From Nitrospira sp. Ga0074138 (GTDB lineage: Bacteria > Nitrospirota > Nitrospiria > Nitrospirales > Nitrospiraceae), in contig LNDU01000032.1 in NCBI GenBank assembly GCA_001464735.1, positions 1 to 64,000 on the forward strand: 64,000 nt of DNA, written 5' to 3'. Position 1 is the first letter of the stretch. Every line of letters starts with the position of its first letter. Positions 45,785 to 55,667 of the stretch are shown here, one piece after another. A program made the translations under genes and the position numbers. The notes beneath the pieces are model-generated. The model made no database searches and had not been told where the DNA came from. It worked only from the letters and a program-made list of their open reading frames with translations.

Positions 45785-46144
45785 TCACGTGTTGGAGCCC
45801 CGTCCGTATTTATCCAAGAGGGTTTGAAGGTCTTCAGGAATGGGCATGGACTGAAACGGCGGGACGCGAGCCCCGCCAGTATTGCCTATCGGCACCCAAA
45901 TTCGTGAAAACAGCAGAGCTCCCAGGATCCGAGGCAGTTGACCGGCTATTTCTACGAAATCTCGGCGCCTCCAACCGACCTTCAGCATCCACCAGTGGGT
46001 TCGCGCATGCTCAATCGGAAACGATTGCCCCAAGATATGCGCCCGCTCAAGATGGGTAAATGCGAGTTGCAGATCGCCAGCATCATACTGACCGACTGCT
46101 GCCGTCATTTCGGCATCATAGGCTTGTCGGAGCACGGGGTGCAC
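45785..46144 (-). CDS. DUF3703 family protein
   Basis: YDAGDLQLAFTHLERAHILGQSFPIEHARTHWWMLKVGWRRRDFVEIAGQLPRILGALLFSRIWVPIGNTGGARV. Confidence 0.8.
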   Translation of the reverse strand: MHPVLRQAYDAEMTAAVGQYDAGDLQLAFTHLERAHILGQSFPIEHARTHWWMLKVGWRRRDFVEIAGQLPRILGALLFSRIWVPIGNTGGARVPPFQSMPIPEDLQTLLDKYGRGSNT

Positions 46145-46320
46145 AATTACCTCTCAGTAGAGAGACTTCTTTACTCTACGTGACGAATGGATCACAACCC
46201 AGTGTGTTGAGGAATAACAACACAAAATCGAAGCTGGTGGTTTTCGTTTGAGCCAACGGGAACCCGGTACGATCATTCACAATAGTGGGCCCACCACATG
46301 AATAAATGCGAGGAGCGGTC

Positions 46321-49300
46321 TCATCTCTTTTGATTAACCAGTTCCTCGATTGGAAGATCCTTGCAGGTTGGACGATACGAATCTTCTGTTAAGTATTCCA
46401 ACCACTCAGTCCGACGTAGATTTCGATTGGCAATGCGACAAGCTTTGTCAGATAGGGATTCAAAATTCACATCCCAGAGCGTCAGCACGCCCTGAGGGCT
46501 TCCGGCAGCTAAGAATCTGCCGTCAGGACTGAAAGAAAGAGCCTTCACGTTACGTTGGTCATGAGATAGAGTGATACTCTTCGGGGGATTAACCGTAACG
46601 TCCCAGAGCAGCAGTAACCCTTCCTCATTGCTTGACGCCAACACCTTGCTAGTTGGATTGAAGACTAATTTACCCATCCATGAACCACCGCGTGAACCTC
46701 CCCGATATGTTGGTAGGCGGGCAAGCAGAGTGGGATGAGTTTTCATATCCCAGAGAATCACTGTACCGCTGAGATCAGTGGATGCCATCAGATGGCCGTT
46801 GGGACTGAATACAATTTGGCTACAGTTACCGCTAATCCCCTCTAGGGATACTGCGGAAGAAGAGGGTACAGTTAGATCAATAAGTTGTAATAAGTTATCC
46901 TCGCAGCCAATAACCAGCTTTGCACTATTGGGACTGAAGACGGGTCGCCTTAGATAGCCTTTACGCGATGGAAGTGCTATTGGCCGAGGTTCTCGCTCAC
47001 TTAAATCCCACAGCCACACATCGCGTTGACGATCCGTAGAAACAAAACTTTTTCCATCGGGACTATAGGTGACAGTTTCCATCTCATTCTGCTGATGGCC
47101 TGTAAGGAAAGTGGTTCGAGGTGGGTTCACGGCCAGGTCCCGGAAGACTAATGTCCCCTCCATTCCGGCCGAAATGAAGCTTTGACCATCTGGGCTAAAA
47201 GTGAAATCTCGCACATGCCCATGGTGATCCACTGCCGGAAACAGCTTTGACGACTTTAGCCTCAAGTCCGAAAGGATGATGTCTTCACCATCGCTTGAGG
47301 CTATGAACCGGCCATCCGAGCTGAATCTAATTCTCCAGACAGAGACCCGATGATCATGAAGTTTAGTGGACGTTGGCGGCGATTTGGAGAGATCCCAGAG
47401 GCGGACGGTCTTAAAATCCCCTGAGGCTAATAGCTTCCCATCCGAGCTTAGCTCAAGTGTGCCGACAGCTCCATGATGCCTTACAAGGGAAATGGAGCGA
47501 GGCGGGGTCGTGCTCAAGTCCCAAACTAATGGGGTGGCGTCCGACGCGTGGACTGCGAGCACCCTTCCACTTGAGTCAAAATAGATGTCCTCCACTTCGC
47601 CACGATGACCGTGTAACGGTAACCGTACGGCTCCTGGACCTTCGAGATCCCATATCGAGAACGTACCAACTGAATTAACCGAAGCCAACATTCTGCCATC
47701 GTTGCTAAAGGCCTTGGGCCCATCCTGAAACCCCGGTAGGTTAACTACCACTGGGCGGTCCTCATGCAAATGCCACACGCTAAAAGTTCCTAAGCCAGAT
47801 CTGAGCACTAGATGCCGTCCATCAGGGCTAAAAACTTGTCCATCGATGGCGGCGTCTAGATGGTAGCCTTCCAATACAACTGCTCTGGGTGGAGTAGCTT
47901 TGAGATCCCATAGCTGAAGTAGACCTTGACCAGGCCCCGATACCAAAGACTTGCTATCCGGGCTAAATGCTAAACTCCAAATACCATTCGCAAGAGCTGG
48001 AAGAGAAATGGAACGAACTGGTTGTACACTTAGATCCCAGAGCAGCAGCGTCCCCACGCTGTCACCCGCTGCAAGCCACTTTCCATCCTGGCTAAAAGCA
48101 AGAGTCCTGACATAGTCGCGATAGCCATCAAGGTATACCGGGGTTGGGGGCTTTACAGTTAAATCCCAAAGCACAAGGTTTCCTTTTGAATCACTCAGTG
48201 AATAGAGCTTCCCGGTCGGACTCATAGCATATGCTCGTACAGTTCCCTCGTAACCGAGGAGAGGACTGGACCGAGGCGGCGCCATAGTTAAATCCCAAAG
48301 CATAAATATCCCTTGATTGGGATTTTCTGAAACTAAGGACTTTCCGTCAGGGCTGAACGCAAGGCCCCATACACCAACTTCAAGATGAGTGAATTCATTT
48401 GTTGTGGATTCGACATTCCATATAAACACGCCATCGCCACTCCCGGAGGCAAGGAGTTTTCCATTGGAACTGAAACGTAAGTCGCTGACGTAGGATTTAT
48501 GACCGAGGAGCGACCGCGAACGAGGTGGAGTCTGATTGAAATCCCAAAGCAACACCGTGCCTTTGTCATCGCTTGAGGCAAGGGCTTTGCCATCAGGACT
48601 AAAAACCATCTTCGTCACTTCCCCTTGGTGGCCGGGAAGAATTACGGATGTAGAAGGGCTGACACTTAAATCCCACAGCCGCAATCTGCCACCATGACTC
48701 ATAGATGCAAGAAACCGATTGTCCTTGCTAAATGCTAGTATTCTTCCATCGCCATAACGCCCGTGCAGTAAGACAGTAGGCCCAGCCGAATCTAATGTGG
48801 TGTAAAGGGCTTGCAGGGCTTCTGCTGTTCCAGCTTTCCTATAAGCTTCCACACTGAGAAGCAATGCTAAATCAGGTTGTTTTTCCAAATGCTTGCCAGC
48901 TTCATTAGCCAAATGACGCGAGACGGCCACCTTATATCGCTCATCGGCCACATAGGCCTTCCAAATTGCAACACAAGCGGCGACTAGAATCACACAAACA
49001 AATGCCCATCCCACGGTTTTTAACCTTCGGTGTTGCCGGACATCTTCACCGTCGAGTTCGTCTTTTGGTCTTCCAATCAGTGGAGCGGCAATATCGAGGA
49101 CGGCTGCACGAAACCGAGAATGGCTCAGTGTGAGATTATCCACATTCCTCGCCCATCGCAGATCCACATACTTGGGCTCGCTCGTGAACTTGCCAATCAG
49201 GTTGGAAGGAAGTGCGGTTCTCTCTGTCGGGTCAAAATCGCCTATATTGTCGTTCCAGCGAAGAGTGCCTTCTGTGACGAGAAGGAATAATGTCTTACAT

Positions 49301-49668
49301 GAACGATGTGTTAACCACCACTCAATCTCTTTCTGGACCCACTTGGACTCGGCCGCCTTGGGTGATGCCATCAGTAGAAAATATTCCGACTCCTCCAGAG
49401 CCTTTTGAATGGAGGGCCACAATTCCGGTGTCAGGGCGAGGCTAGTTTCATCCCGGAATACACGCATCGCCCTCAATCGATTCCAGGGCTTGGCGAACCG
49501 ATGCAGGGCAACTTGCAGCGATGGAGCCAACATACCATCGGCCGCATGGCTATAGGAGATAAACGCCTTATACTTGAATGCAAGAGTTCTCGGACTTGAA
49601 AGGGTGGGGTTGTCAGCAATGATCGGAGAGGACTCAGCCATGGTAAGTTCTACTGCTTGCCAGGTCAA
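46321..49668 (-). CDS. TIR domain - TM helix - WD40 repeat protein (about 18 WD repeats)
   Basis: TIR: FKYKAFISYSHAADGMLAPSLQVALHRFAKPWNRLRAMRVFRDETSLALTPELWPSIQKALEESEYFLLMASPKAAESKWVQKEIEWWL; TM: GWAFVCVILVAACVAIWKAYV; linker LANEAGKHLEKQPDLALLLSVEAYRKA; repeated FSPDGKxLASxxxxGTVxLWDL. Confidence 0.92.
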   Translation of the reverse strand: MTWQAVELTMAESSPIIADNPTLSSPRTLAFKYKAFISYSHAADGMLAPSLQVALHRFAKPWNRLRAMRVFRDETSLALTPELWPSIQKALEESEYFLLMASPKAAESKWVQKEIEWWLTHRSCKTLFLLVTEGTLRWNDNIGDFDPTERTALPSNLIGKFTSEPKYVDLRWARNVDNLTLSHSRFRAAVLDIAAPLIGRPKDELDGEDVRQHRRLKTVGWAFVCVILVAACVAIWKAYVADERYKVAVSRHLANEAGKHLEKQPDLALLLSVEAYRKAGTAEALQALYTTLDSAGPTVLLHGRYGDGRILAFSKDNRFLASMSHGGRLRLWDLSVSPSTSVILPGHQGEVTKMVFSPDGKALASSDDKGTVLLWDFNQTPPRSRSLLGHKSYVSDLRFSSNGKLLASGSGDGVFIWNVESTTNEFTHLEVGVWGLAFSPDGKSLVSENPNQGIFMLWDLTMAPPRSSPLLGYEGTVRAYAMSPTGKLYSLSDSKGNLVLWDLTVKPPTPVYLDGYRDYVRTLAFSQDGKWLAAGDSVGTLLLWDLSVQPVRSISLPALANGIWSLAFSPDSKSLVSGPGQGLLQLWDLKATPPRAVVLEGYHLDAAIDGQVFSPDGRHLVLRSGLGTFSVWHLHEDRPVVVNLPGFQDGPKAFSNDGRMLASVNSVGTFSIWDLEGPGAVRLPLHGHRGEVEDIYFDSSGRVLAVHASDATPLVWDLSTTPPRSISLVRHHGAVGTLELSSDGKLLASGDFKTVRLWDLSKSPPTSTKLHDHRVSVWRIRFSSDGRFIASSDGEDIILSDLRLKSSKLFPAVDHHGHVRDFTFSPDGQSFISAGMEGTLVFRDLAVNPPRTTFLTGHQQNEMETVTYSPDGKSFVSTDRQRDVWLWDLSEREPRPIALPSRKGYLRRPVFSPNSAKLVIGCEDNLLQLIDLTVPSSSAVSLEGISGNCSQIVFSPNGHLMASTDLSGTVILWDMKTHPTLLARLPTYRGGSRGGSWMGKLVFNPTSKVLASSNEEGLLLLWDVTVNPPKSITLSHDQRNVKALSFSPDGRFLAAGSPQGVLTLWDVNFESLSDKACRIANRNLRRTEWLEYLTEDSYRPTCKDLPIEELVNQKR

Positions 49669-50336
49669 AAACTTGACTAGATAACCTGCGGGGCTGTGAT
49701 GTTAGGTTAGCATGCTGACGCTGTCAAGGTGCAAGGAGCCTAGAAAGATAGCGCCAGGTCTAATCTTGTTCTGTGCATACCCAGCTTCTGGTCTCCTTAC
49801 GACCCAGACAGCCTCCGATCCCTATATCGTGCGGGTTATTGCGGCCGTCTGGCTGGCCTATGCGCTCGGCTGGACACGCGAAGGCCCTTGCGGAGAATTC
49901 AAACCGTATCACAAAGCAAAAAATTCAAGGGGAAACGAGTGAGGCTCATAAAGAGTTGCTCATCAACTGCGGAAGCACTGGGCAGGTTTGATATTGAACT
50001 AGACGCTCCTGGAGGGGTTTATCCTGCGACGATAAATGAAGAGAGGCTGTACCTGATGAGGCGCCGGATGAGCAAGGTTTTGAGTAGAGGAAAGTCGAAA
50101 AGTTTCTTCGCCGAGAATGCTATAAAGCCATAATGTGACGGCGGTGCGAGCACATATAAGTTCGGAGGTGAAACATTGGGAGTGTTTACTCGGCGTCGAT
50201 AATACAGGAGGATTCTCCTGATGAGCCACTAGTACTTGCGGGCGAGGTTTATCGTGGAAGAAATATCGAAGAGGTATCCGCTCGCGTCAGGCATGATGCA
50301 TCGATAAAGAGCGAGCGGGTCGTACGAAGTGCGGTT

Positions 50337-50412
50337 TGGTGGCGGTGGGCCGGATTGAACGGCCGACCCGCGGCTTATAAGTCCGTTGCTCTGCCGACTG
50401 CACTACACCGCC
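50337..50412 (-). tRNA. Divergent tRNA with UAU anticodon (tRNA-Ile(UAU) candidate, or pseudo-tRNA derived from tRNA(CAU))
   Basis: Minus: GGCGGTG TA GTGC AGTCGGCA GAGC A ACGGA CTTATAA GCCGC GGGTC GGCCG TTCAATC CGGCC CACCGCC A CCA (76 nt); acceptor and T stems pair fully, CCA encoded; mismatches in D and anticodon stems. Confidence 0.65.
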
Positions 50413-50502
50413 ATGGCAATATTAAGGGGTCGGATAACTTTGTATGGTCTGAAATGTTTCGCCTGCGGTCGGCAAGAGGGCAAGCGATTCGAGCACTTCA
50501 GA

Positions 50503-50646
50503 TCAATGTTTCATGTTGCCACAAGCTAAGTCTCCAATGATAAGCGGGTGACAGACAACCAGCTCTTCATCCAGCAGTCGGTGAAGAGCAGGGGAGTTGG
50601 TACGCAGATGATCGATCCACATGGAAGTATCGACGAGTGTAGGCAT
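50503..50646 (-). pseudogene. VapC-type PIN-domain toxin fragment
   Basis: MPTLVDTSMWIDHLRTNSPALHRLLDEELVVCHPLIIGDLACGNMKH* is a canonical PIN/VapC N-terminus, truncated at about 48 aa. Confidence 0.75.
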
Positions 50647-50653
50647 GACTAGG

Positions 50654-50790
50654 TAGGCAGGCCCCGGCGGATGTCTTTCAGAAGGGTTCAGTGCCGCCCA
50701 GTCGAGCGAGACGCTTGGCTGCTTCGCGAGAAACGAGGGATTCAAGTCCCAAGCGCACGAGCTGGGTCTTTCCCTGAACGCCAGCGGGTC
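50654..50790 (-). pseudogene. VapB-type antitoxin C-terminal fragment
   Basis: Minus-strand frame ...AGVQGKTQLVRLGLESLVSREAAKRLARLGGTEPF* resembles VapB C-termini; N-terminus missing; immediately upstream of the VapC fragment; boundaries approximate. Confidence 0.65.
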
Positions 50791-50805
50791 AACCGAAGGT
50801 TGGTT

Positions 50806-50823
50806 TGGTGGCGGTGACCCGGT
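50806..50823 (-). repeat. 18-bp 3'-terminal fragment of tRNA(CAU), att-like direct repeat
   Basis: TTGGTGGCGGTGACCCGG identical to 54592-54609 (3' end plus CCA of the intact tRNA), same orientation. Confidence 0.75.
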
Positions 50824-50873
50824 TTAAGTTTTACCGCACGATGCACCGATCGTAGAGGGGACTCATCGCCCTC

Positions 50874-51266
50874 CTAGCTAGGACCTGGTGGATCCTCACG
50901 ATCTTCTCCGGTTAGGAGATCGGCCTCTTGCATTTCAAGTCCCTGCAGCTCGGTTAGGATACTTTGTAGTGCCTGGCGGCGTTGCTGTAGTCCCTTCTTG
51001 GGGATGTCTCGCGTCAGTGGTTCCTGAGCTGATTCCGGCAAATTTACCAGCGCTTCAGCCTCCCCCACCGTGGCATATTTGTAAGATTCCACATACTGGT
51101 GATTGGCGCCGTATATGTTGATTAAGATGTCTTCGGTTTCGGCGTCAAACTGATCGAAGGTGGGATTTACGGCCGTGTGGTGGGCCAGGCTTTTGAGCTT
51201 ATCGATCTGAGACTTGAGTGTATCGCTTCGGGATTGTGCATGATACATGGAGTTCACGTCAGCCAT
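50874..51266 (-). CDS. Hypothetical protein
   Basis: 130-aa ORF with coherent helical/charged composition; no family recognised. Confidence 0.55.
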   Translation of the reverse strand: MADVNSMYHAQSRSDTLKSQIDKLKSLAHHTAVNPTFDQFDAETEDILINIYGANHQYVESYKYATVGEAEALVNLPESAQEPLTRDIPKKGLQQRRQALQSILTELQGLEMQEADLLTGEDREDPPGPS

Positions 51267-51480
51267 AACTTAATCTCCTTCCCTGTTAGTCTTCGTATAC
51301 ATTTCTTTCATGGGGCGGAGTAGCTAGGCATTCCCCTGGGAAGGGAGCCTCTGATGCATTATCTCTCCAGATCCATCTAAACCAGGGCGTTGCCTAGGCC
51401 ATGCCATATCAGCAATCATGCTAGGGATATGAACATGACTGCATTTCTTGCAACGGAATCCATCATCCCAGGAGGATAGT

Positions 51481-51912
51481 ATGAAAACCACCGCGGCCCT
51501 TTTCATTATTCCGATGCTTGTAGTGGGCGGAGTTTCTTGCGGGCCGACCACCGATACTATTCGAGCCCCATTTGACATTACGTCCAGCACATCCCCCGGT
51601 AACAGCGCGCCCACCGGTCCTGCCAAGGCTCGTCAGCAATTGGAGCGCTTCGTGGCATTTGCCTTTGATAGCGTGAGCGGCGATATTGCTCATGGCCATG
51701 GCGAATATCTGACCTCGCTGGCTGTTTTGGCCGGCATTCCGACCGACTCGCAGGCCGCCTTTCGGGCGGAGATGCAGAGACGCTATGCCTTAATGTCCGA
51801 TCCTAACTTGTCCCGCAAAGAGGCGTGGACGCTGGTTGTGAACGATGCCTGGTCGGCCGGCTACGGAAGGAGCGAGAACGGGCACAACCTTTCCGCGGCG
51901 AGTGGCTCATGA
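51481..51912 (+). CDS. DUF3015-like lipoprotein
   Basis: Lipobox GGVSCGP; TSSTSPGNSAP...ERFVAFAFDSVSGDIAHGHGEYLTSLAVLAGIPTDSQAAFRAEMQRRYALM. Confidence 0.7.
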   Translation: MKTTAALFIIPMLVVGGVSCGPTTDTIRAPFDITSSTSPGNSAPTGPAKARQQLERFVAFAFDSVSGDIAHGHGEYLTSLAVLAGIPTDSQAAFRAEMQRRYALMSDPNLSRKEAWTLVVNDAWSAGYGRSENGHNLSAASGS

Positions 51913-51971
51913 ACAAGCTAAAAGGGCGTCGCGCAGATCAGCTCCCACCAATGATCAGGAAGAGGCGGGCC

Positions 51972-52640
51972 TCATCGAAACTGCGCAAACTCTCGTGCAG
52001 CGATGGTTCCAAGGCGGGCGTCACCAAGAATTTGACCCTGGATCTCTTGCACGGCTTCAGAAAGTGCCTGGTTGAGGCGCGTACCAGGGGACATCTCCCC
52101 AGTTGTATTAAATCGTTCGTTGAATGAGGAGGAGCCCCGGTATGTACCGACCAGTTTGCCGCGGTAGGTTAAGAGGAATACAGTGAGGTCCGCTTCCCCG
52201 CTGCTGACATGCGTTTTCAGATCCAACACAGTGGCTATGGTTCCGGCATACGGGAGTTTTGTCCATACCTGCGGTCGGTAGTGCTTGTGCAGTGAATTGA
52301 TACGAGCCGTCAGAACAAGGTCGGGGTGCGGATCGAACGTGACGAGTTTTGAGAACACTCCAGCCTGATCGAATGAGTTGAGTAATGCCTGCTCCACTTG
52401 CTTGGTAAGCACCGACGGCGCAACCTTCGCGGTATTCGGTTCGATCAGGCCAAAGCTCTCCTTGCCGGAGACTAGCGCGAGTGCCGGGTATACGTCATGA
52501 AATTCGGCGGTCGCGTCGATGATGCGATGAGTTTGGACCACGCGGATGTCCGGCACATACTCTGGTTTACCGCAGCCGAGCACCGCCGCAGCAAGCACTG
52601 AGCACACCAGCATGCATATTGGACCATTACGTCTTAGCAT
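51972..52640 (-). CDS. Hypothetical lipoprotein
   Basis: Leader with AAAVLGCGKPE lipobox; no domain recognised. Confidence 0.65.
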   Translation of the reverse strand: MLRRNGPICMLVCSVLAAAVLGCGKPEYVPDIRVVQTHRIIDATAEFHDVYPALALVSGKESFGLIEPNTAKVAPSVLTKQVEQALLNSFDQAGVFSKLVTFDPHPDLVLTARINSLHKHYRPQVWTKLPYAGTIATVLDLKTHVSSGEADLTVFLLTYRGKLVGTYRGSSSFNERFNTTGEMSPGTRLNQALSEAVQEIQGQILGDARLGTIAAREFAQFR

Positions 52641-52944
52641 CGATGCCTGAACATTCGTGGACTGTGTGACAAGAGTCTTCCTGTAGTCTACCCAACGAGG
52701 AAAGAGAGGAACACTGGGGATAGCCCGGGGTTCAGAATGTCATGAGAGTTTGGATTTTCACAGAATCCCTTAAGCGCAAGCCGTTCATTTCAAAGCGATG
52801 AGCCGAGTTATTCAGAGGGTATTTCAGACGAAGATTTGGGACTTGAAATACGTTGAGAAGGCGGTATGTGATGGGGGCTTCGCGGCGATTTAGGAACAAA
52901 CTAGCGTTCGAGGTGGGGACATCGTTATAGAATCGGCCCGACCG

Positions 52945-54483
52945 TTATGTCTCAATCGGAGAAAGATCGGCCTTCGCAGGACCGTTCAGTACTTTCCCAT
53001 ACGCACTAAATCGAGAACCGTGACAGGGACAGTTCCAGCTGTGTTCTATGGCATCCCACGCGACAATGCATTTGAGATGCGGGCACACGGCTGAGCAGCG
53101 ATGTAATTCTCCTCCTTCGTCCCGATAGACGGCTATCTTCTGGATACCGTGCCGAAGTATCGCCCCCGTTCCCTTCGGAATGTGATCTTCAGATTCGACG
53201 TCGCCTGGCGACAGCCAGTCTCCATACTGCGCGGCCACATTCAGGTTCTCTTGAACAAAGGTTCCCGCCGCTTTCAGCGACTTCCGAGCCGGATCGTACA
53301 ATGTGGTCCAGGCATTCGTACGACCCAGAATGAGATCGGTGATGAGGATGGCGGCAATCGTGCCATGCGTCATACCCATGCCGGAATCACCGGTGGCTAT
53401 GTACACATTGGACTCATCACTGGGATTCCGACCGAGTAATCCTAGACCATCGATCGGTTCCATGACCTGTCCCGACCAGCGGTACTCGATGTGCGTGATC
53501 AACGGAAATCGTGCCCGGGCCCACTGTTCCAATTGTCGATGGCGAGCTTCTCCATCGTCCGCCTGACCCGTCTTGTGATCTTCACCACCGACAATCAAGA
53601 GATCGTGGCCGTCGGCTGCTGCTCCCTTTTGGATTCTGACGTAATGGTAGGGGTCAGCCCGATCCCAGTACAATGCGGTTGGCACAGAATTCTTCGGCAC
53701 ACTCGCTCCGATGACATAGGTGGTATAGGGTGCTTGTTTGGTGTGCACAACGACCATATCGTTGATGGGGGTATTCGTAGCCACGACAACCGACTGAGCC
53801 ATGATGACATGACCGGATCGGGTTTCAATTCGCGATGGTTTCCCGCCCTTCACGGTTTCTACATGGCAGCCGGTGAAGATCCGCCCGCCGCGCCTTTCAA
53901 TCGCCTGCGCCAGACCGGTCATATACTTCAATGGATGGAATTGAGCCTGCCGTGGAAATCGAAGGCATACTCCAGGTTCCAGGGCGGGAAGGGAGGGATT
54001 CACGACCTGTACGACATCGACGCCCGCGCGAAGCGCCGCCAGCCGCTCTTCTTCCAATTCTTCCGCTGACGGTTCCGGCGCTTGGAAAAGGTAACCGTCG
54101 GTTCGCTCAAAATCGCAGGCAATACGTTCCGTCGTCACAATAGTTTCGATGCGATCGATCGCTGCAGTATGGCTGGCGGCCGCCAGGCGAGCGCCTAGTT
54201 CGCCGTGCAGGCGTTCGATTTCAACATAGCCGTCGTCGATGACGTTCGACAAATGTGCCGTCGTCCGTTCGGTCATCCCTCCACCGATCGGACCGTCGTC
54301 AAGGACCACCACCGATTTGCCCTCACGAGACAGACAATAGGCGGTCGACAGTCCGGCTATTCCGGCTCCGACAATACAGACATCCGTATTTAAAGATTGA
54401 TTCAATGAATGCGAAGAGAACTCTGGCTTGGAAGCGGTCCAGACAGACTGGGTCCCGTTTGTATTGTCTTTCATGATTGCCAT
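52945..54483 (-). CDS. FAD-dependent oxidoreductase with C-terminal Rieske [2Fe-2S] domain
   Basis: VCIVGAGIAGLSTAYCLSREGKSVVVLDDG (DAO fold); Rieske ligands CPHLKC and CPCHGSRF. Confidence 0.93.
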   Translation of the reverse strand: MAIMKDNTNGTQSVWTASKPEFSSHSLNQSLNTDVCIVGAGIAGLSTAYCLSREGKSVVVLDDGPIGGGMTERTTAHLSNVIDDGYVEIERLHGELGARLAAASHTAAIDRIETIVTTERIACDFERTDGYLFQAPEPSAEELEEERLAALRAGVDVVQVVNPSLPALEPGVCLRFPRQAQFHPLKYMTGLAQAIERRGGRIFTGCHVETVKGGKPSRIETRSGHVIMAQSVVVATNTPINDMVVVHTKQAPYTTYVIGASVPKNSVPTALYWDRADPYHYVRIQKGAAADGHDLLIVGGEDHKTGQADDGEARHRQLEQWARARFPLITHIEYRWSGQVMEPIDGLGLLGRNPSDESNVYIATGDSGMGMTHGTIAAILITDLILGRTNAWTTLYDPARKSLKAAGTFVQENLNVAAQYGDWLSPGDVESEDHIPKGTGAILRHGIQKIAVYRDEGGELHRCSAVCPHLKCIVAWDAIEHSWNCPCHGSRFSAYGKVLNGPAKADLSPIET

Positions 54484-54592
54484 TAGTACCCGTATGGTCT
54501 GAATACAGCAACAAGGGAAACCTCTAGGGAGGGTGCCTCAACAGAGCCGTCCGGGATCTATGAGCAGCTGAGTGATAAGTTGCGGGAATTAT

Positions 54593-54668
54593 TGGTGGCG
54601 GTGACCCGGATTGAACGGGTGACCCGCGGCTTATGAGTCCGCTGCTCTACCAACTGAGCTACACCGCC
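54593..54668 (-). tRNA. tRNA with CAU anticodon (probably elongator Met)
   Basis: GGCGGTG TA GCTC AGTTGGTA GAGC A GCGGA CTCATAA GCCGC GGGTC ACCCG TTCAATC CGGGT CACCGCC A CCA, 76 nt, CCA encoded. Confidence 0.93.
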
Positions 54669-54803
54669 ACGTTGAAGAACGCAGATGATAGCCGAAGACA
54701 ACGGTCACTGTCCACCGACTGAATAGAGCACAGCCGTGCCATGTCTAGATGAAAGTGTTCAAAACCTGTTATGGTCCTGCGGCTTTGACTCAAAAGGAGC
54801 GAG

Positions 54804-55667
54804 ATGTCGATCGGAGATAATCGTGCGGTGGTTATTACCGGAGCCTCCACTGGAATTGGAGCGTCCTGCGCGCTGCATCTTGATCGATTGGGGTTTGCCG
54901 TGTTTGCAGGAGTACGGAAATCGGAAGATGGTGTGGCCCTTCAAACGGCCGGTTCCGATCGGCTGGTCCCGGTGGAGCTCGATGTGACAGATCTGGTAGC
55001 TATTCAGAAGTCTTACGCAGTAGTTTTGGAAGCGACGAGAGATCGTGGACTCTTTGGACTCATTAACAATGCCGGGATTGCAGTCGTGGCGCCACTTGAA
55101 GCCGTACCGATCGCCGACCTCCGCCAGCAGCTTGAAGTGAATGTTATCGGGCAGGTGGCCGTCACCCAAGCGTTTCTTCCGTTAGTCCGACAGGCACGGG
55201 GACGCATCATTAACATGGGTTCTATTGCAGGCCTCTCAACGATACCGCTGATGGGCCCCTATTCGGCTTCGAAGTTCGCGCTGGAAGCCATTACAGACGC
55301 CTTGCGCCTCGAGGTCCAGCAATGGGGGATCCATGTCTCGATTATCGAGCCGGGTGCGATCACGACACCTATTTGGAACAAATCGGCGATCGAGGCAGCT
55401 GAGCGAGAGGCTGCCATCGAGACGGAAATTCGAACCCTCTATAAGCCTGTTGTGGCTGCGGTGAGGAAGGTCGTGGGAGAAGCTTCAAAGCGAGCGATCG
55501 CGCCTGATGCTGTTGCAAGAGTGGTTGAAGAAGCCCTGACTGCTCCGACTCCGAAAACGCGGTATCTCGTTGGGACTGATGCCAAGCTCCGCGCGCTGAT
55601 GGTGAAACTGCTTCCCGATCGGATCTCCGATCGGCTGTTGACATGGATCCTCAAGTTGCCTCATTGA
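54804..55667 (+). CDS. SDR family oxidoreductase
   Basis: VVITGASTGIGASCALHLDRLGF...NNAGIAVVAPLEAV...GSIAGLSTIPLMGPYSASKFALEAITDALR. Confidence 0.93.
   Translation: MSIGDNRAVVITGASTGIGASCALHLDRLGFAVFAGVRKSEDGVALQTAGSDRLVPVELDVTDLVAIQKSYAVVLEATRDRGLFGLINNAGIAVVAPLEAVPIADLRQQLEVNVIGQVAVTQAFLPLVRQARGRIINMGSIAGLSTIPLMGPYSASKFALEAITDALRLEVQQWGIHVSIIEPGAITTPIWNKSAIEAAEREAAIETEIRTLYKPVVAAVRKVVGEASKRAIAPDAVARVVEEALTAPTPKTRYLVGTDAKLRALMVKLLPDRISDRLLTWILKLPH

Follow-up and report, generated by a model that had tools for sequence, protein, structure and literature searches.

The UAU-anticodon sequence of Nitrospira sp. Ga0074138 is very probably a pseudogene of elongator tRNA-Met, a relic at a genomic-island junction that acquired its UAU anticodon by decay. 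It was studied in a window of 64,000 nucleotides, the whole stretch of DNA that was analysed (contig LNDU01000032.1, positions 1 to 64,000), and the features discussed below are collected in Table 1. The sequence itself is real, and its most likely cause is an ordinary one, namely a degenerate island at tRNA-Met with a pseudogene of that tRNA.

Detection and structure of the UAU sequence

Two tRNA genes were found in the window by ARAGORN, a tRNA-Ile(tat) and a tRNA-Met(cat). With the Rfam tRNA model, the covariance score proposed as a check in the earlier note was 47.3 bits (E = 5.7e-7) for the UAU copy, which is above the Rfam threshold, and 64.3 bits for the tRNA-Met(CAU). At this E value a chance match was excluded. 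Both programs thus agree with the earlier description of a tRNA-like sequence of 76 nt with a UAU anticodon and an encoded CCA, and its acceptor stem and T arm are intact.

The UAU copy was said to be a paralogue of the nearby tRNA(CAU), and the two indeed share 66 of 76 positions, the ten differences being at positions 11, 12, 17, 20, 27, 34, 49, 50, 64 and 65. The two compensated T-stem pair differences (49-65 and 50-64) were found as described, and so were the G12/A23 and A27/C43 mismatches of the UAU copy; in addition, C11 is changed to T, leaving a weaker D-stem pair, U11-G24. The uppermost pair of the anticodon stem, A31/G39, is mismatched too; all native tRNA-Met genes examined in the genus share this feature, which was therefore not regarded as decay.

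It is scarcely conceivable that the UAU copy is an assembly or sequencing artefact. The genome is a draft of 66 contigs (94.7% complete), but both tRNAs lie within one contig of 107 kb and their flanks differ; the UAU copy, moreover, has a 3' flank of its own and carries the native allele described below. Sequencing error, which had been named as an explanation that could overturn the finding, is unlikely on the same grounds, since the differences between the two copies are scattered along the gene.

The parent gene and the two tRNA-Met alleles

There are three CAU-anticodon tRNAs among those examined in the genome. From general knowledge of tRNA features, we take the one on contig C60 to be the initiator because of its C1-A72 mismatch, the one at C63:16109 to be tRNA-Ile2-like because of its C4-G69 pair, and the one in the window to be the elongator tRNA-Met. 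Judged by its sequence, the UAU copy is a paralogue of elongator tRNA-Met. An origin from tRNA-Ile2(CAU) was considered and ruled out, since the body is that of elongator tRNA-Met.

The tRNA-Met gene was searched for in 80 genomes of the genus, and 14 relatives with a native-type allele were fetched. Their tRNA-Met(CAU) is the same as the UAU copy except at positions 11, 12, 17, 27 and 34; C20 and both strands of the T stem are shared, and no difference was found from position 35 to 76. Among these relatives are G013, G015, G017, G018 and G079, whose neighbouring core genes on the side of the DUF3703 gene have 92-95% identity to the window. Since C20 and the T stem GGCCG/CGGCC occur in the closest relatives, they were taken as the native tRNA-Met allele of the lineage. 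The allele of the window's tRNA-Met(CAU), with T20 and ACCCG/CGGGT, was found exactly in seven other genomes of the genus (G006, G007, G010, G028, G035, G036 and G076).

On this comparison of alleles, it is the window's tRNA-Met(CAU) that has the foreign T stem, and not the UAU copy. The compensated pairs had been interpreted in the earlier note as a sign that pairing was maintained in the UAU copy. This interpretation was wrong, because they are simply the ordinary tRNA-Met allele of the closest relatives; for the same reason, it was ruled out that the UAU copy had been under selection in its T stem.

The insert at the tRNA-Met site

In the relatives, tRNA-Met lies between a DUF3703 gene and an SDR gene. 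The site is empty in G018, G002, G063 and G075, where tRNA-Met and the DUF3703 gene are 60-145 bp apart and the SDR gene flanks the tRNA on the opposite side; in the window about 8.4 kb separates the tRNA-Met from the DUF3703 gene. The insert encodes a WD40-repeat protein, a DUF3015 protein, two ORFs without a family and a DAO-Rieske oxidoreductase. No intact integrase ORF was found within 46145-54592; all that is left of such a gene there is a 3'-end remnant, and the island was therefore called degenerate. The protein of the corresponding G015 integrase gene matches Phage_integrase. No homology with the right end of the G015 island was found, a plasmid search gave no match, and a phage search gave one unannotated record (84% over 56 nt).

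From the promoter inward, the order is the foreign tRNA-Met, the integrase remnant, the cargo genes, the displaced 3'-terminal fragment with its tail, the UAU copy with its older tail, the WD40-repeat protein and the DUF3703 gene. This layering suggests two successive insertions, and it is from the layers that we infer the order of events.

Two further observations were made in the insert. At 46321-49668 (-) is the gene of the WD40-repeat protein, which has 1115 amino acids, many repeats and an N-terminal region that looks TIR-like by eye; it is possibly a defence or signalling gene of the island. At 50520-50770 (-) there are two short frames resembling, by eye, a truncated VapB C-terminus and a VapC N-terminus, without a Pfam match.

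Table 1 Features of the tRNA-Met locus in the window
Feature	Position	Strand	Remarks
Insert	46145..54592	.	Between the DUF3703 gene (45785-46144) and the SDR gene (54804-55667)
3' flank (tail) of the UAU copy	50270..50336	-	As found directly behind the tRNA-Met of relatives; G013 95.5% over 67 nt, G017 92.5%
UAU copy	50337..50412	-	Derived from tRNA-Met, full length, UAU anticodon; native allele (C20, T stem GGCCG/CGGCC) with private T11, G12, C17, A27 and T34
Tail behind the 3'-terminal fragment	50780..50808	-	96% over 26-28 nt to the tails behind T20/ACCCG tRNA-Met in G010 and G035
3'-terminal tRNA-Met fragment, second displaced piece	50806..50825	-	CCGGGTCACCGCCACCA; foreign ACCCG allele
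Integrase remnant	54488..54592	+	Matches the G015 tyrosine integrase gene at its 3' end; in G015 this gene abuts tRNA-Met
Elongator tRNA-Met(CAU)	54593..54668	-	T20 and T stem ACCCG/CGGGT (foreign allele); same sequence as tRNA-Met in other congeners
Native tRNA-Met 5' flank	54669..54760	-	Promoter-like TGGACA-18-TATCAT (54714-54685), conserved in relatives

The predicted native promoter would now drive the foreign tRNA-Met allele. Upstream of the UAU copy no promoter-like site was found; the conserved tRNA-Met promoter is missing, and the DNA there is unrelated to the native 5' flank. When this DNA was compared with known tRNA-Met promoter regions, the best shuffle p was about 0.025 in about 40 comparisons, and no homology is claimed. 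Behind the UAU copy lies a 3' flank of the kind that follows the tRNA-Met of relatives (the 67-nt alignment in Table 1 includes the last 4 tRNA bases). As the native promoter lies upstream of 54593 and the native allele and tail lie at 50337, the allele and its tail have been severed from their promoter. To regard this 3' flank as plain core DNA was too simple, because the empty-site genome G018 has another tail and tRNA-Met tails vary widely; possibly it represents the terminus of an older element.

Probable displacement of the native tRNA-Met

The tRNA-Met gene is a repeated insertion target in the genus. The 9.8-kb island of G015 encodes a tyrosine integrase and is accompanied by a displaced tRNA-Met 3' fragment (positions 31-76), and similar displaced 3' fragments are present in G027 (32-76) and G004 (22-76). 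A phage-like element of about 10 kb, IMGVR_UViG_3300036766_001483 (L081/L082), is inserted in the tRNA-Met of a related bacterium, its ends being a full tRNA and a fragment 25-76. In G065/G066 a 5' fragment (1-42) is found at one junction and a full tRNA-Met with another 5' flank 1.2 kb away. At this last locus a serine recombinase gene was also observed (L069, 1526-3247), the 3' end of which overlaps the tRNA-Met in antisense.

The favoured explanation for the window would run as follows. An element with a tRNA-Met sequence would have recombined into the native tRNA-Met gene, so that its own copy came under the native promoter. The native copy would have been shifted inward, entirely or at least in its 3' part beginning near position 35. 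The 3'-terminal fragment at 50806-50825 would be the trace of a later element that entered the new tRNA at its 3' end. The old copy, being promoterless, could mutate freely, and a change of C34 to T would have given the UAU anticodon. Against this explanation, the island has no intact integrase gene. The UAU copy also spans the entire tRNA, while the 3' fragments displaced elsewhere begin at tRNA position 22-32; the recombination step was therefore not the simple textbook one. The intact acceptor stem, T arm and CCA and the clustering of the private changes, both taken up below, count against it as well.

The origin of the 5' half can be explained in two ways. In the first, the whole native gene was displaced by a crossover before position 20. 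This fits the presence of C20 in the UAU copy and T20 in the promoter-linked copy, but leaves to chance the fact that all five private changes lie within positions 1-34 (chance about 0.02 if changes were uniform). In the second, the UAU copy is an attR hybrid that arose from a site-specific crossover in tRNA-Met, at a point between positions 35 and 48. Its 3' half would then be the displaced half of the host gene, and its 5' half (1-34), with all five odd bases, would have been brought by the element and never have been part of the host gene. The clustering of the private changes at or before position 34, with 35-76 identical to the native allele, fits a hybrid better than plain decay. Furthermore, the displaced fragments in G015, G027, G004 and the viral contig start in positions 22-32, and the G065/G066 locus indicates that elements supplying a 5' half exist here. 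However, a hybrid needs a coincidence or an extra change to account for the native C20 in the UAU copy and the foreign T20 in the promoter-linked copy, and the sequence upstream of the UAU copy has no clear resemblance to any tRNA-Met promoter region. Hybrid formation is thus a tentative possibility, somewhat to be doubted. Displacement of the whole gene and formation of a hybrid both end in a promoterless relic, and they differ only in the origin of the 5' half.

Signs of decay in the UAU copy

The stem mismatches had been considered a sign of decay, and this was borne out. The UAU copy scores 47.3 bits where the native allele in relatives scores 61.4 bits, it has five private changes (5/76, 6.6%) including two new stem mismatches, and it is without a promoter-like site. 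Its score is the lowest among the tRNAs of the genome without a long variable arm; the other tRNAs below 57 bits are all 84-92 nt, i.e. they have a long variable arm. Over the first 66 columns of its comparison with G013, the tail shows 3 substitutions and 2 gap columns, with more differences further out, so that the divergence of the UAU copy from the native gene resembles that of its flank, while the tRNA-Met is invariant across the same relatives. The exact UAU anticodon arm was found in this genome alone among 271 genomes of the class, and in none of the viral contigs.

Between the two options in the earlier note, the decaying duplicate is the one that was supported, as a native tRNA-Met allele displaced by mobile DNA; apart from a modest AUA excess of the island genes, nothing speaks for a working tRNA-Ile(UAU).

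AUA decoding and possible function

A search of the genome for tilS and tRNA-Ile2(CAU), which had been suggested earlier, found both outside the window locus: tilS is on contig C34 (190 bits, above the cut-off), and a close match to the tRNA-Ile2-like gene at C63:16109 is present in 20 of 20 genomes searched. Some bacteria are reported to have both tRNA-Ile(UAU) and tRNA-Ile2(CAU) with TilS. TilS and tRNA-Ile2 therefore make the UAU copy less needed, and a small chance of function is left.

The comparison of AUA usage between island and core genes was another earlier suggestion. Counted on window genes only, AUA makes up 15 of 90 Ile codons in island genes, about five times its share in the sampled core genes, where it accounts for 21 of 629 (p = 6e-6). 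However, GC3 is also lower in the island genes (0.53 vs 0.60 in core genes), and lower GC3 together with AUA excess is usual for acquired DNA. The genes of the G015 island, which has no UAU-type tRNA, use AUA for 5 of 85 Ile codons.

It was considered whether the UAU copy is a functional tRNA-Ile(UAU), or a Met-charged AUA reader, carried by the island as an aid to its own AUA-richer genes. The intact cloverleaf, T arm, acceptor stem and CCA, the score above the Rfam threshold and the modest AUA excess (15/90 vs 21/629) are in keeping with such a role. However, the AUA excess tracks the lower GC3, the upstream region is without a promoter-like site, the stems have the G12/A23 and A27/C43 mismatches and the U11-G24 wobble, tRNA-Ile2(CAU) and tilS are in the genome, and none of the other genomes among the 271 of the class has kept the sequence. 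The body is that of elongator tRNA-Met with five differences from the native allele, and not that of tRNA-Ile. TilS acts on C34. It has been reported that bacterial MetRS also uses C34 as a determinant (PMC9976931). Neither enzyme is thus expected to accept U34 well. A functional tRNA of either kind is therefore very improbable.

A processed RNA from the UAU copy is conceivable, given the intact acceptor stem, T arm and CCA. Very improbable, too, is that the displaced copy is expressed at a low level and that its U34 reads AUA as Met (mistranslation) or as Ile, favouring the AUA-richer island genes. If that were true, a new decoder would have come from an island insertion and one anticodon mutation. 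Most likely, the UAU copy does nothing in translation and AUA is read by TilS-modified tRNA-Ile2(CAU).

Comparison with known systems and implications

Pairs of a regenerated and a displaced tRNA are a known signature of tRNA islands (PMC4383910). Like islands of the Islander type (PMC4383910), the window has a regenerated tRNA at one end of the island and a displaced tRNA further in, both on the (-) strand, with the core gene order outside and empty-site relatives (G018, G002, G063 and G075); junctions in the anticodon region, in both 3'- and 5'-fragment forms, are found in the genus. Unlike them, the displaced sequence in the window is a full-length tRNA instead of a fragment, and the integrase is a remnant of a 3' end. 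In tRNA-dependent lysogeny, as outlined in PMC10865867, the broken host gene is complemented by a phage tRNA gene at another place in the phage genome, whereas the incoming tRNA of the window lies exactly behind the native promoter. The tRNA-Ile(UAU) of Mycoplasma mobile and Lactobacillus plantarum have been reported as real isoleucine tRNAs, according to the works that cite them (PMC11938285, PMC9976931). On those accounts, the window copy resembles them in its UAU anticodon and differs in its elongator tRNA-Met body and its signs of decay.

In the genus, tRNA-Met alleles and 3' flanks have been reshuffled between lineages. A compensated stem change between tRNA copies can reflect an allele swap by a mobile element, and does not have to point to selection acting on the odd copy. 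Gene callers label the window sequence as tRNA-Ile(UAU), a rare class, and a displaced tRNA-Met in a tRNA-targeted island can mimic that class.
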